Shown: in pieces, positions 58,895 to 64,000 of the stretch | How positions within the stretch are numbered: position 1 is the stretch's first letter | Layout: every line of letters begins with the position of its first letter | Assembly: GCF_002087235.1 (NCBI RefSeq) | Contig: NZ_MUIO01000075.1 | Span: 1-64,000, forward strand | Direction: 5' to 3' | DNA length: 64,000 nt | From: Pseudomonas floridensis | GTDB lineage: Bacteria > Pseudomonadota > Gammaproteobacteria > Pseudomonadales > Pseudomonadaceae | Position numbers and translations under genes: made by a program | Notes under the pieces: model-generated | Database searches by the model: none | What the model was told of the DNA's origin: nothing | What the model saw: the letters and a program-made list of their open reading frames with translations, nothing else

Positions 58895-58964
58895 CTTGAT
58901 CCTGGCCGGCTTGCCGGTACGTTTGCCTACTTGACCGATTTATCCTCACACCACGAGGTTGCTC

Positions 58965-60446
58965 ATGAACCGTGAAGAATTCCTGCGTTTGGCCGCTGAC
59001 GGCTACAACCGCATCCCGTTGGCCCGCGAAACCCTGGCTGACTTCGACACGCCGCTGTCGATCTACCTGAAACTGGCCGACCAGCCGAACTCCTATTTGC
59101 TGGAGTCCGTTCAGGGCGGCGAGAAGTGGGGGCGTTACTCGATCATCGGTCTGCCATGCCGCACGGTACTGCGCGTGCATGGCCAGCGCATCAGCATTAC
59201 TCATGACGGCGTCGAGATCGAAAGCCTCGAGTCCGAAGACCCACTGGCGTTCGTCGAGGCGTTCAAGGCGCGTTACAACGTGCCGACCATCGCCGGTCTG
59301 CCGCGCTTCAATGGCGGGCTGGTCGGCTATTTCGGTTATGACTGCGTGCGTTATGTCGAGAAGCGTCTGGCGAACTGTCCGAACCCCGATCCATTGGGCG
59401 TGCCTGACATTCTGCTGATGGTGTCCGACGCTGTCGTGGTGTTCGACAACCTGGCTGGCAAGATGCACGCCATTGTGCTGGTCGATCCGGCGCAGCAGGA
59501 TGCCTACGAGCAGGGGCGTGCGCAGCTCGACGAACTGATGGACAAGCTGCGCCAGCCCATCACGCCACGTCGCGGCCTGGACCTGGATCGCCCGCCCGCG
59601 CCGGATCCGGTATTTCGCTCCAGTTTCACGCAGAGTGATTACGAAGCGGCAGTCGATACCATCAAGCAGTACATTCTGGCGGGCGACGTGATGCAGGTCG
59701 TACCGTCGCAACGCATGTCCATTGACTTCAAGGCCGCGCCCATCGATCTGTATCGGGCGCTGCGCTGCTTCAATCCGACGCCTTACATGTACTTCTTCAA
59801 CTTCGGTGACTTCCATGTGGTCGGCAGTTCGCCGGAAGTGCTGGTGCGGGTCGAAGACAATCTGATCACCGTGCGTCCTATTGCTGGCACGCGGCCACGC
59901 GGCGCCAACGAAGACGCTGACCTGGCGCTGGAAAAAGACCTGCTGTCCGACGACAAGGAAATTGCCGAGCACTTGATGCTCATTGATCTGGGCCGCAATG
60001 ATACCGGTCGCGTGTCAGAGATCGGCACGGTCAAGCTGACCGAGAAAATGGTCATCGAGCGCTATTCCAACGTGATGCACATTGTTTCCAACGTCACCGG
60101 CCAGTTGAAAGACGGCCTGACCGCGATGGATGCACTGCGGGCGATTCTGCCAGCGGGCACCTTGTCGGGCGCACCGAAGATTCGTGCGATGGAAATCATC
60201 GATGAGCTGGAACCGGTCAAGCGCGGTGTTTATGGCGGGGCAGTGGGGTATTTTGCCTGGAATGGCAACATGGACACCGCTATCGCGATTCGTACCGCAG
60301 TGATCAAGAACGGCGAGCTGCACGTACAGGCGGGCGGCGGGATTGTGGCTGACTCGGTGCCTGCGCTGGAGTGGGAAGAGACGCTCAACAAACGTCGCGC
60401 GATGTTCCGGGCGGTGGCGCTGGCGGAGCAGACCGCGGCGGAGTGA
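58965..60446 (+). CDS. trpE: Anthranilate synthase component I TrpE
   Basis: The start is the ATG at 58965 (493 aa), with GAGG eight bases upstream; the TTG 6 bp earlier is not needed. The chorismate-binding domain has [39 protein letters not shown] and AGGGIVADS. It makes anthranilate from chorismate with TrpG. No leader peptide was found in the short spacer before it. It marks one side of the trpE-trpG pyocin/tailocin site. Confidence 0.98.
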
Positions 60447-60840: not shown

Positions 60841-62772
60841 TCAGAAGTTCAGACTCAACGCCACGTTGGCACCCTGCTGCGTCACGTCGTCGTTCTTGCG
60901 CCAGTTGTAATTGGCACGCAGCGTGAGGTCCTGAGTCAGCTTCTGGCTGACGCCGAAGGTGGCCCGGTTCAGGTTGCGTTGCGGGGTATAGCCGTCCAGC
61001 GTGAAGTCGATGGATGGCAGGCTGTTGAGTGATAGGGTCACGTCCTGCTGGTCAGTCTCGAACTCCCGTTCACGCGCCACTTCTCCCCAGATCTGGGTTG
61101 ACGATGTGACCTGGAACTTGCCCTGCAAACCCACGCCCGCCCGACGGGATTTGCGTGTCTGGTCGCTGAAGGTCAGTGCGGTCGAGCGAGTACCTTCCTC
61201 GGAGTAGCCGTCCACGTCGATGTCCGCATAATCCGCGCTGACGAAAGGCGACAGGTGCCAGCGGCTGGCTGTCCCTGCGAGGTCGAAACCAATGCGGGCG
61301 CTGACGGCCCACATTTCGCCATCAGTGTCACCTTTCTCTTGACCTTCGCTCACGCCCAGCGCGAATTTACGTTCGGCATTCTCGTAGTCCAGCTTGCCGC
61401 CGGAAGCCGCCAGGTCGCCCCACCAGTGGTTGGCCTGGTATTGCAGAAACGCCGTGGCGATGTAGCTGTTGAGCTTGTAGTCCGAATCTCTTGGACCCGC
61501 TTCCAGATTCTGGCGATAAGCCCCGGCGACCACACCCGTGCGCCAGTGGTCGGCGAAACGGTAACTGGTGCCGATGGTCAGGTTATAGCCTTTTCCATCA
61601 GCGTCTGCTGACGTGTCCTGAGCATCGATGTCCAGTTTCTGACCTCCCGCCGAGAGGATGCCTTGCCATTGCCCGACTGCCTGCCAGTTGCCGAAATCGC
61701 TGAGCCATTGGGCATGGAGTTCGTCCTGGTGGGCGCGCAGGGTGGTGTTGGCCATTTCAGGCAGCAGGGTGATTTCCCACGGTGCCGACAGCAATGAATA
61801 CGCATAGTCGGCCAACAAGCGCTGACCGGCTTCGGTCGGGTGGACGCGATCGTTGAAGAACAGCTTGGTTGGATCGGGCGTCGTGCCGGAACGACCGTAA
61901 GTAGCGCTTTCGTCGCAGTTATCGCCGCTGAAACAGGTGCCCACCAGGTCTTCATTCGGGTCGAAGCCGAAGCGCGCCGCAGAGGTGAGGGTTTCGCTGA
62001 TCAGCAGCGGCACGTTGAGCGGGATGATCTGCGCGTCAACCTGCGTCAGACGGCTCACCAGTTGTTCGTTGAATCGGGCGCTGAGTCTGGAGGTCGTTGA
62101 CTCCAGCACGGTGCCGCTCAAGGCTGGCGTTTTGCCGATGTCCGGCAGCAGCCAGACCATGATGTAACGTGCGCCAGCCTGCTGCAGCACCTGCGCGCTG
62201 TCGGCCAAGCGGTCTGCGGCATCTTCGGCGTCGCCGGAACTCAACACACGTCCCTGCAGGAAATCGTTACCGCCCCCTGTCAGGTAATAGAGCGCGTTCG
62301 GGTCTGCCCGCAAGCCGTTGGCGGGCAGATAACCCGTACGGCTGCGCAACACGGTCTGCGATCCGCTGGTGATCGGGGTCACGGTGTCGGATCGGGTCGT
62401 GATCGAATCCAGAATCTGATCGGTCCGATAGCCGCCCACCGCCCAGTTGTTACCGTCCGGCAGGCCCAGCGCTGCGTTGACCGGCGAGGTAGAGGGCGCA
62501 AGATCGCCTGCGGGGACATTGAGCATCCTGCCGATGAGCGTCGATGAATTGAGGTTGTACACCTCGCCGCTGCCGTCCTGATAAGTCGGGCCGACTCGGT
62601 TGGTGAAGCGCAAAGTGGCACCGGCGGGTCCGTCGGTATCCGGAAACTGACCAGCGTCCGCGAGGCTGTCGCCGAAGACCACCATGGTCGAATAAGGGGC
62701 GGCGACGGCTGAGCTACAGGCCAGCGAAAGTAGACAGGCCGCAAATGGCCATCGCCTTGATGTCATGATCAT
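60841..62772 (-). CDS. estA: Autotransporter GDSL esterase EstA
   Basis: The 643-aa protein has a signal peptide (about 1-25), a GDSL catalytic domain with nucleophile S36 in [11 protein letters not shown], the GGGND block and the catalytic D/H pair in [13 protein letters not shown]-terminal autotransporter beta-barrel (about 380-643) ends in phenylalanine (VALSLNF). EstA-type enzymes stay anchored in the outer membrane with the esterase facing out, and in P. aeruginosa affect rhamnolipid production and motility. The first ATG (62772) has AAAGGAT 7 bp upstream. Confidence 0.95.
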
Positions 62773-62884
62773 GAGAAAGATCCTTTCCTGTTTTTATTCT
62801 ATCTAGGAAACGTAGCAAGCCTCTTCATGACCGCCAGTACTGAAGGAAGTTACCGCCCAGTGGTTGCTCCATCACGTTTGCGAA

Positions 62885-63127
62885 TCATGCGGCCTTGTCT
62901 GTGACGATGTCGTTAAGGTAGTTGGCCAGGTCATGCAGGTAGACGAACGGATGACCCTGACGGGTGCCACCGGTACGGCTGACTTTCAACGCGATACGCC
63001 CGGCGTTGATCTTGCGCAACAGGTTGCGGTCGTTGGACAAGTGCGAGAAATAGCGCTCTCTCACCGCACTCAGCGATGGGCACGGCGTTGCGAATTCCTT
63101 GCGAAGTTGGTCGAGTATGTCGTTCAT
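62885..63127 (-). CDS. prtN: PrtN-family pyocin/tailocin activator
   Basis: The ATG at 63127 (80 aa) has AAGGGAG seven bases upstream; the longer open frame is not supported. The core VRERYFSHLSNDRNLLRKINAGRIALKV and the end YLHDLANYLN match the PrtN pattern (a YFSxL helix, then FLRKINAG and L.DLA.YL). In P. aeruginosa PrtN switches on pyocin genes after RecA inactivates PrtR. The place just after trpE and estA matches that system. It is the last gene of a three-gene leftward unit. Confidence 0.78.
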   Translation of the reverse strand: MNDILDQLRKEFATPCPSLSAVRERYFSHLSNDRNLLRKINAGRIALKVSRTGGTRQGHPFVYLHDLANYLNDIVTDKAA

Positions 63128-63168
63128 TCCGTGACTCCCTTTTCTGTGTACAGGTAAAAAGTGCAACG

Positions 63169-63351
63169 TCACGCCGCATCTCCGCCCAAGGGGGCAGAGT
63201 GCGAATCGATGACGGGCGAGGCCTTGGGCCGGTTGTTGGCCACAACCAGGAATTGCCCGGTCTGGCGCTGGATCATCTGTATGAGATGTCTGTCGCAGGC
63301 TGCCGGGTGCAGATAAACCGGGCAGCGTGTCAGTTGTCGTGTGGTTTGCAT
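63169..63351 (-). CDS. Small conserved protein of the pyocin regulatory region
   Basis: The ATG at 63351 (60 aa) has GGAG seven bases upstream. The sequence MQTTRQLTRCPVYLHPAACD-RHLIQMIQRQTGQF has two cysteines and a histidine (RCPVYLHPAACD) but no known motif. From memory, similar short proteins occur beside repressor genes in Pseudomonas. It follows the promoter and operator array and lies 41 bp before prtN, so it is probably the first gene controlled there. Confidence 0.65.
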   Translation of the reverse strand: MQTTRQLTRCPVYLHPAACDRHLIQMIQRQTGQFLVVANNRPKASPVIDSHSAPLGGDAA

Positions 63352-63380
63352 GTTCGTACTCCATAACGAGGTGCAAACAA

Positions 63381-63409
63381 ACAATACGATATGTAGTAAA
63401 ACACTGCAA
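63381..63409 (-). promoter_or_regulatory. Predicted promoter of the small-protein/prtN unit
   Basis: On the minus strand TTGCAG (63409-63404) and TATTGT (63386-63381) are 17 bp apart, a good sigma-70 layout. The start codon of the 60-aa gene is 30 bp downstream of the -10. The two operator-like repeats at 63383-63398 and 63408-63423 overlap the -10 and -35. Confidence 0.6.
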
Positions 63410-63442
63410 TACAGTTTGTAGTATTAAATACGTTTTGTATTA
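63383..63442. promoter_or_regulatory. Three tandem operator-like repeats AATAC-N5-GTA(G/T)TA
   Basis: Copies are AATACGATATGTAGTA (63383-63398), AATACAGTTTGTAGTA (63408-63423) and AATACGTTTTGTATTA (63427-63442). Each is an imperfect dyad (AATAC...GTATT). Centre-to-centre steps are 25 and 19 bp. The first two overlap the predicted promoter; the third overlaps the DUF1654 stop codon. They are probable binding sites for the nearby S24-type repressor or for PrtN. Confidence 0.7.
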
Positions 63443-63697
63443 GCAGGTGTCTGCAGAGTCGACGTACCAGGACACGTTCACCGAGCCGGTCTCAAGGTTG
63501 CGGGTCACAGTAATGCCTTCAGCCTCGCTGATCTCTTCCACGATCTGCTCCCAATGAAGGAGCGACTCGCCCCGTTCACGTATCAGCAGCACCTGATGAT
63601 CGATCTGCGCCTTGGGACTGGTGATCAGGTCTTGGATACGCTGGGCGAGCGCCAGATAGGCATCATGTTGCGATACATCGGGTGTCAGGTTTTGCAT
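63440..63697 (-). CDS. DUF1654-family protein under an SOS box
   Basis: The ATG at 63697 (85 aa) has AAGGAG seven bases upstream; an upstream in-frame start is less likely. The sequence YLALAQRIQDLITSPKAQ, then LHWEQIVEEISEAEGITVTRN and a C-terminal VNVSWYVD strand, fits the small DUF1654 family of Pseudomonas, whose role is unknown. The SOS box 17 bp upstream suggests DNA-damage control. Confidence 0.72.
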   Translation of the reverse strand: MQNLTPDVSQHDAYLALAQRIQDLITSPKAQIDHQVLLIRERGESLLHWEQIVEEISEAEGITVTRNLETGSVNVSWYVDSADTC

Positions 63698-63714
63698 GCG
63701 TGAACTCCTTTTTA

Positions 63715-63730
63715 CTGTATGTGCATACAG
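63715..63730 (-). promoter_or_regulatory. LexA-type SOS box over the DUF1654 promoter
   Basis: CTGTATGTGCATACAG is a CTGT-N8-ACAG site, the form of the LexA box, and sits in the inverted repeat 63713-63732. It overlaps a possible -10 (TACTGT, 63732-63727), which lies 17 bp from a -35-like TTGCGT (63755-63750). LexA or the neighbouring LexA-like repressor may bind. Confidence 0.8.
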
Positions 63731-63803
63731 TAGTTGAGTAATATTTCCCACGCAAGCGGCAAACCTTTCCTATCTGTCAGCGCGTCGCTTGAACGTCGCC
63801 CAT

Positions 63804-63828
63804 TAAAAAGCCCCGCTTGGCGGGGCTT
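63804..63828 (-). terminator. Terminator after the S24-type repressor gene
   Basis: Read on the minus strand, AAGCCCCGC and GCGGGGCTT form a perfect 9-bp stem with a 3-base loop, followed by TTTTT. It lies 18 bp after the repressor stop, so the repressor and DUF1654 genes have separate transcripts. Confidence 0.9.
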
Positions 63829-63846
63829 CGGGCATATCGAGAGGAC

Positions 63847-64000
63847 TCAGAGGCGCATCGTCATCTGTCTGATGACACCGATCAGTTTGCACTCTTCACT
63901 GACCGCGATGGTGGGGTAGGCCGGGTTAAGCGGTTTGAGGAAATAACGCCCGGCATCCTCGACCAGCTTCTTGAACGTCGCCTCGTTGCTTTCGGGAAGC
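63847..64000 (-). CDS. S24/LexA-like repressor, C-terminal part only (PrtR-type)
   Basis: Only the last 50 codons are in the window. They read TFKKLVEDAGRYFLKPLNPA-YPTIAVSEECKLIGVIRQM and end MRL. The K-rich segment, YFLKPLNPAYP and the closing strand IGVIRQ fit the C-terminal end of S24 peptidase domains of LexA-like phage repressors. Such proteins cleave themselves on contact with RecA filaments. Beside PrtN and after trpE it is the likely PrtR counterpart; the DNA-binding part lies outside the window. Confidence 0.8.
   Translation of the reverse strand, partial: LPESNEATFKKLVEDAGRYFLKPLNPAYPTIAVSEECKLIGVIRQMTMRL

Follow-up and report, generated by a model that had tools for sequence, protein, structure and literature searches.

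The 64,000-nucleotide stretch of the Pseudomonas floridensis genome analysed here (the window) ends inside the gene for a CI-like S24 repressor, and three sites that stand before the nearby prtN-like gene are very probably operators of this repressor, which is predicted to cleave itself. The initial annotation had taken these sites to form a repressor switch. This appears to be right in substance, and repressor operators are the best reading of the sites on the comparative evidence set out below.

Three dyads at the putative prtN promoter

The tailocin regulatory genes adjoin trpE, which was recognized by a Pfam match; trpG was not identified on the window's contig. Conservation was scored in 16 loci (15 named P. 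syringae-group records and the window) and, with 32 more from viral contigs, in 48 loci in total. The features within the window are:

58959-60446: trpE
62885..63127, minus strand: prtN-like activator gene, 80 aa (PF11112 PyocinActivator, E=6.9e-24), in 16/16 loci
63169..63351, minus strand: lineage-specific 60-aa gene (phrog_13491, E=4.5e-16, function unknown), detected in 4/16 loci
63381..63409, minus strand: putative prtN promoter, with -35 TTGCAG at 63404-63409, a 17-bp spacer and -10 TATTGT at 63381-63386
63385..63395, minus strand: O3, putative operator, in the spacer and running into the prtN promoter -10
63410..63420, minus strand: O2, putative operator, running into the prtN promoter -35; kept in 46/48 loci
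63429..63439, minus strand: O1, putative upstream operator (dyad core), abutting the DUF1654 stop codon (63440-63442); kept in 41/48 loci
63440..63697, minus strand: DUF1654 gene, 85 aa (PF07867, E=1.6e-14), in 16/16 loci
63715..63730, minus strand: CTGT-N8-ACAG (LexA-type) box upstream of DUF1654, in 16/16 loci
63847..64000, minus strand: the part of the CI-like S24 repressor gene that lies within the window (whole gene 63847-64491 on the contig)

A pattern search located exact 16-bp copies of AATAC-N5-GTA(G/T)TA at 63383-63398, 63408-63423 and 63427-63442, and the three copies with steps of 25 and 19 bp that had been described at the outset are thus present as such. The exact pattern has three matches in the whole 6.1-Mb genome, all of them at the prtN promoter, and the reversed control pattern has four. 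As a genus-wide marker the 16-mer was tried and abandoned as uninformative, with at least one match in 215 of 398 Pseudomonas genomes and similar counts for the reversed control; no triple outside this genome was found among the matches listed for these 398 genomes. Since the exact spelling is uninformative, the analysis was moved to the 11-bp dyad TAC-N5-GTA, which is the conserved unit. The 16-mer first put forward as the motif therefore exists, but as a local spelling of this dyad. When the 200-bp prtN promoter segment was shuffled with its dinucleotide content retained, one of 20,000 shuffles gave three TAC-N5-GTA dyads (shuffle mean 0.14).

The O3 sequence, TACATATCGTA, occurs once per locus in 48/48 loci. 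The O2-O3 distance is 25 bp in 46 of the 48 loci, O2 being degenerate in the other two, and the O1-O2 distance is 18-20 bp in the 41 loci where O1 is kept. The promoter pattern TTGnnn-17-TAT[TC]GT is likewise found in all 48 loci (-10 TATTGT in 45, TATCGT in 3), and across loci O3 overlaps the -10 and O2 the -35 of this promoter. A sigma-70 consensus scan of positions 62700-64000 reported no promoter at its threshold. The letters of the proposed TTGCAG-17-TATTGT promoter are thus both present and conserved, but its description as a 'good' promoter is not borne out by the scan. The prtN promoter and the divergent phrog_4300 promoter described below are accordingly termed putative, their conservation being set against a poor sigma-70 consensus match.

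The promoter had also been thought to read into the 60-aa gene and a PrtN-family gene. The PF11112 match bears out the latter, but the 60-aa gene was detected in only four of the 16 loci. Within 63128-63351, ATGCAAACCACA is kept in most other aligned loci and there continues straight to prtN; judged by this comparison of leaders, it looks as if the 60-aa gene had been inserted here or lost elsewhere.

The CTGT-N8-ACAG sequence that had been noticed some 270 bp away was placed at 63715-63730, 272 bp off, and is taken here to be a LexA box by the known consensus. The box before the DUF1654 gene is conserved in all 16 loci, and the suggestion that two separate inputs act on neighbouring promoters is therefore plausible; the conserved box is the observed part of that suggestion. 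A GC-rich stem followed by a T-run was seen by eye between the repressor gene and the LexA-type box.

The repressor gene, a second array and the tailocin cluster

The window's contig (C261) runs past the window to position 81,843. The protein encoded by the complete repressor gene contains Peptidase_S24 (E=2.2e-25) and HTH_3 (E=5e-11) domains and matches the lambda repressor (3bdn) over residues 17-209 (E=1.4e-30). In lambda CI, cleavage involves an Ala-Gly site, a serine and a lysine; in the alignment with 3bdn these fall on an Ala-Gly pair, on the serine of SMTAP and on the lysine of TFKKL in the present repressor. The motif VIAKL had been considered as the site of the catalytic lysine and was dropped, as the lambda CI alignment puts the lysine in TFKKL.

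A second triple array is found outside the window, in the intergenic region between the repressor gene and phrog_4300, where dyads start at positions 64503, 64529 and 64562 of C261, approximately 1.1 kb from the first array. In this region 0 of 20,000 shuffles gave three dyads. The 81.8-kb contig holds 13 TAC-N5-GTA dyads, six in the two promoters and seven elsewhere. The divergent phrog_4300 promoter displays the same fusion of operator and -10 as the prtN promoter, once per locus in 48/48 loci; its -10 is TATTGT in 42 loci and TATTTT or TATTTA in six, and its -35 is not TTG in four.

Past the window, the plus strand carries the phrog_4300 gene (divergent from the repressor gene), a com gene (Zn_ribbon_Com), the gene for a B-lectin-like protein and a holin-like gene, followed by genes for the tail terminator, the sheath, the tube and the proteins of tail-fibre assembly, and by one for a lysin of family GH19. 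The contractile-tail families PF04984, PF17482 and PF10618 were found in the sheath and tube genes. Given these sheath, tube and other tail genes, what had been called a probable tailocin is, as judged from gene content, a contractile (R-type) tail cluster. With the PF11112 match, these genes just past the window agree with the placing of the proposed switch before a PrtN-family gene at the tailocin entrance.

The B-lectin-like protein (276 aa, C261 65547-66377) occupies the first cargo slot and scores 31.3 bits against a Pfam cut-off of 32.4; it could perhaps be a lectin-like bacteriocin. A search of the remaining 15 loci turned up a relative (45%) in L042.

Conservation of the six sites

Over both triple arrays, 276 of 288 sites are kept across the 48 P. 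syringae-group loci, which are related, so that the counts are not independent; some of the loci may come from the same or near strains, and the downstream block of L251 is identical to that of the window's genome. In the 16-locus set 92 of 96 sites are kept, the exceptions being O1 in L043 (P. avellanae) and the middle repressor-side site in L044, L045 and L048 (P. capsici, P. cichorii). In the 32 viral-contig loci the figures are 96/96 on the repressor side and 88/96 on the prtN side. Invariant columns in the 16 loci amount to 34 of 36 in the dyad cores, 18 of 30 in the five-base spacers and 26 of 165 in other non-coding positions. Lack of conservation in related genomes had been named as the finding that would speak against the switch; the repeats are instead kept across the group. 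Because O1 is degenerate in 7/48 loci, O2 in 2/48 and the middle repressor-side site in 3/16, not every site would seem to be essential. A dyad further along the window's contig, past the window (L006:3461), was considered as a seventh operator and rejected, as it is not conserved.

Co-variation of recognition helix and operator

In a first set of 55 S24 repressors, all 32 with the recognition helix GHWL carry the dyad at -81 to -83, counted from a computationally chosen start codon, and none of the 23 with other helices has a dyad within 200 bp upstream. The helix rule was fixed from this set before a second set of 40 was examined, the rows of which were picked by coordinates before the upstream DNA was inspected; G052 and G197, where the motif had already been seen, were left out. 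Here, 35/35 GHWL repressors have the dyad at -82 or -83. One of the five with other helices also has it (L188, with the nearly identical helix VAHWL) and was counted as a miss (Fisher p=5e-5, a value that ignores relatedness).

The GHWL repressors found outside the P. syringae tailocin had been considered as tailocin repressors in their own right. This was dropped, since a divergent DUF6124-type neighbour was found instead, in 45/45 cases. In 11 stretches (10 genomes) with such repressors, tblastn found no PrtN, DUF1654 or tail genes. A PrtN profile gave no match in 51 stretches (those 11 and the 40 of the second set), most of which have flanks of no more than 1.5 kb, while 3/3 controls were found. 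Solitary GHWL S24 repressors, for example L226:8341-9069, thus occur across Pseudomonas, with the dyad at -82 or -83 in 45/45 loci.

A query with the same helix retrieved three S24 proteins from the window's genome, of which the tailocin repressor alone has the GHWL helix. A paralogous module in this genome (C260:14496-15531) combines a DUF1654 gene and a LexA-type box with an S24 repressor whose helix is different. The 200 bp upstream of its repressor contain no TAC-N5-GTA, and a different palindrome, AAGCATGCTTA, was seen there by eye; this module may be regarded as a built-in control for the pairing of helix and operator. Elsewhere in the genome, two further PF11112 (PrtN-family) genes lie close together (C2:3863-5670), with an S24-type protein near them (C2:8895-9089).

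Both the S24 repressor and the PrtN-family protein had been named as candidate binders. The repressor is favoured over PrtN or DUF1654, since repressors with its helix have the dyad before them even in stretches (mostly with short flanks) that yielded no PrtN and, in the 11 searched for it, no DUF1654.

Which protein uses the repeats

If the repeats were instead PrtN sites for the autoregulation of prtN, their position immediately before that gene would be explained, and PrtN is thought to use repeated sites, as at the P. aeruginosa P-box, described in PMC4905994 as four repeats of 10-11 nt. However, the repeats here are spaced by 19 and 25 bp and not by 10-11 nt, P-box-like 11-bp repeats are located elsewhere, and the dyad stands before same-helix repressors in stretches where the profile found no PrtN (0/51, mostly with short flanks), which makes this reading very improbable. 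The adjoining LexA-type box and DUF1654 gene suggest that another regulator could use the repeats, be it LexA, the product of the DUF1654 gene or some general AT-binding factor. This is nevertheless very improbable, in that the dyad is unlike CTGT-N8-ACAG, tblastn detected no DUF1654 in the 11 stretches (10 genomes) around repressors of the same helix, and such a binder would give the co-variation with the helix no reason.

The segment is AT-rich and seven of the 13 contig dyads lie outside both promoters, as might be expected if the repeats had arisen by chance in AT-rich intergenic DNA. Against this, three dyads appeared in only 1 and 0 of 20,000 shuffles of the two regions, the dyads stay while their flanks vary and are conserved over 48 loci, and the additional dyad at L006:3461 behaves as a chance copy should in not being conserved. 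An origin by chance is extremely unlikely.

A model for the switch

With the three sites as operators of the adjacent S24 repressor, we infer the following course of events. Repressor dimers would bind TAC-N5-GTA, and those at O2 and O3 would mask both elements of the prtN promoter, its -35 and its -10, with O1 as an auxiliary upstream site. On the second array the same repressor would repress its own gene and phrog_4300, prtN being repressed through the first array. DNA damage would activate RecA, and self-cleavage of the repressor at the Ala-Gly site would free both promoters, after which PrtN would activate the tailocin late promoter. The DUF1654 gene points the same way as prtN, and the LexA box ahead of it would provide a second SOS input, which could read through into prtN. 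By analogy with lambda, looping could occur between the arrays, which are 1,116-1,134 bp apart (O3 to the repressor-proximal site, 48 loci).

A repeat block downstream of phrog_4300

A non-coding block follows phrog_4300 past the window (C261 65090-65275), and such a block is present in 48/48 loci. In the window's genome it contains three tandem 11-bp repeats. These repeats vary, a strict pattern being matched in 14 of 32 viral loci and a relaxed pattern in 22 of 48 loci, and the P-box consensus was not found in tandem in 15 tailocin loci (L043, with too little DNA, was left out). Related blocks follow relatives of phrog_4300 in 50 of the 54 viral-contig loci examined (56 fetched), and the P-box consensus occurs in tandem in 16 of 53 homologous viral blocks as against 0 of 1,459 other windows. 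The PrtN profile gave no match around the 56 viral loci, where flanks of up to 3 kb were covered, and either PrtN or the phrog_4300 protein may use the repeats.

The block fits the phage-associated promoter element PAPE, which is found with a com gene, and the PAPE reports describe its regulator as yet to be identified (PMC3899960, PMC3973379). In one genome a second copy of the block (84%) precedes a gene for levansucrase (GH68, E=3e-171), and another has a second copy near a contig end; the window's own genome has the tailocin copy only. HexR, which reportedly acts at these levansucrase promoters according to a later report, would be a rival regulator. It is a tentative and rather unlikely idea that PrtN acts both on the tailocin 11-bp array and on the PAPE copies that drive levansucrase in other P. 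syringae strains. If true, PrtN would be the missing PAPE regulator, and DNA damage would turn on the tailocin and levan synthesis jointly in strains with PAPE levansucrase copies.

Comparison with known systems

The closest parallel in wiring is that of P. aeruginosa, where PrtR represses prtN and PrtN acts through the P-box (PMC8609362). A tblastn search with this repressor and PrtN against the g9 PrtN loci gave no match, and the P. aeruginosa-like repressor and operator were therefore compared. The loci used are presumably of the P. aeruginosa type, a label based on gene order; L138, for example, has the order trpE, prtN, prtR, ptrB-like, the names following PAO1. In both groups an S24/HTH repressor lies near a prtN-family gene beside trpE, with conserved repressor-type sites at both promoters. 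However, the match between the P. aeruginosa-like repressor and the present one is limited to 32 residues of the HTH (E=0.003), and for this reason the latter is not called PrtR: it is, as far as sequence comparison goes, PrtR-like in function and no PrtR ortholog. Eleven of the 12 P. aeruginosa-like loci were aligned (L149, with a repressor match from residue 7, was left out); these share TACAAC-N4-GCTATA at prtN, and TACAACC-type sites were seen by eye at prtR. One TACAAC-N4-GCTATA at prtN in these loci thus contrasts with three TAC-N5-GTA in the P. syringae group, where DUF1654 and the LexA-type box also lie between the repressor gene and prtN. The present system thus has the predicted wiring of the PrtR/PrtN arrangement, with a different repressor and operator.

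Lambda has three operators per array with a spacing of approximately 24 bp, and looping between OL and OR. The present system resembles it in the full-length match of its repressor to CI, the cleavage residues and the two triple-operator arrays, but belongs to a domesticated tailocin and not to a phage; one of its two arrays would control an activator gene, and 1,116-1,134 bp separate O3 from the repressor-proximal site. The chromosomal S24 repressors beside DUF6124 share the GHWL helix and the TAC-N5-GTA at -82 or -83. They differ in having one or two dyads, as against two triple arrays here, and in their divergent DUF6124-type gene (45/45) and lack of tail genes (11 stretches, 10 genomes).

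In the available parts of the open-access literature no description of an operator of this kind was found for the P. syringae tailocin. The dyad would thus provide a testable operator sequence for the P. syringae-group tailocin repressor, tied to its recognition helix, and the pairing of operator and helix may make further repressor targets predictable across Pseudomonas. The trpE-side tailocins of the P. syringae group and of P. aeruginosa-like strains would then have a common wiring, with different repressors and operators.
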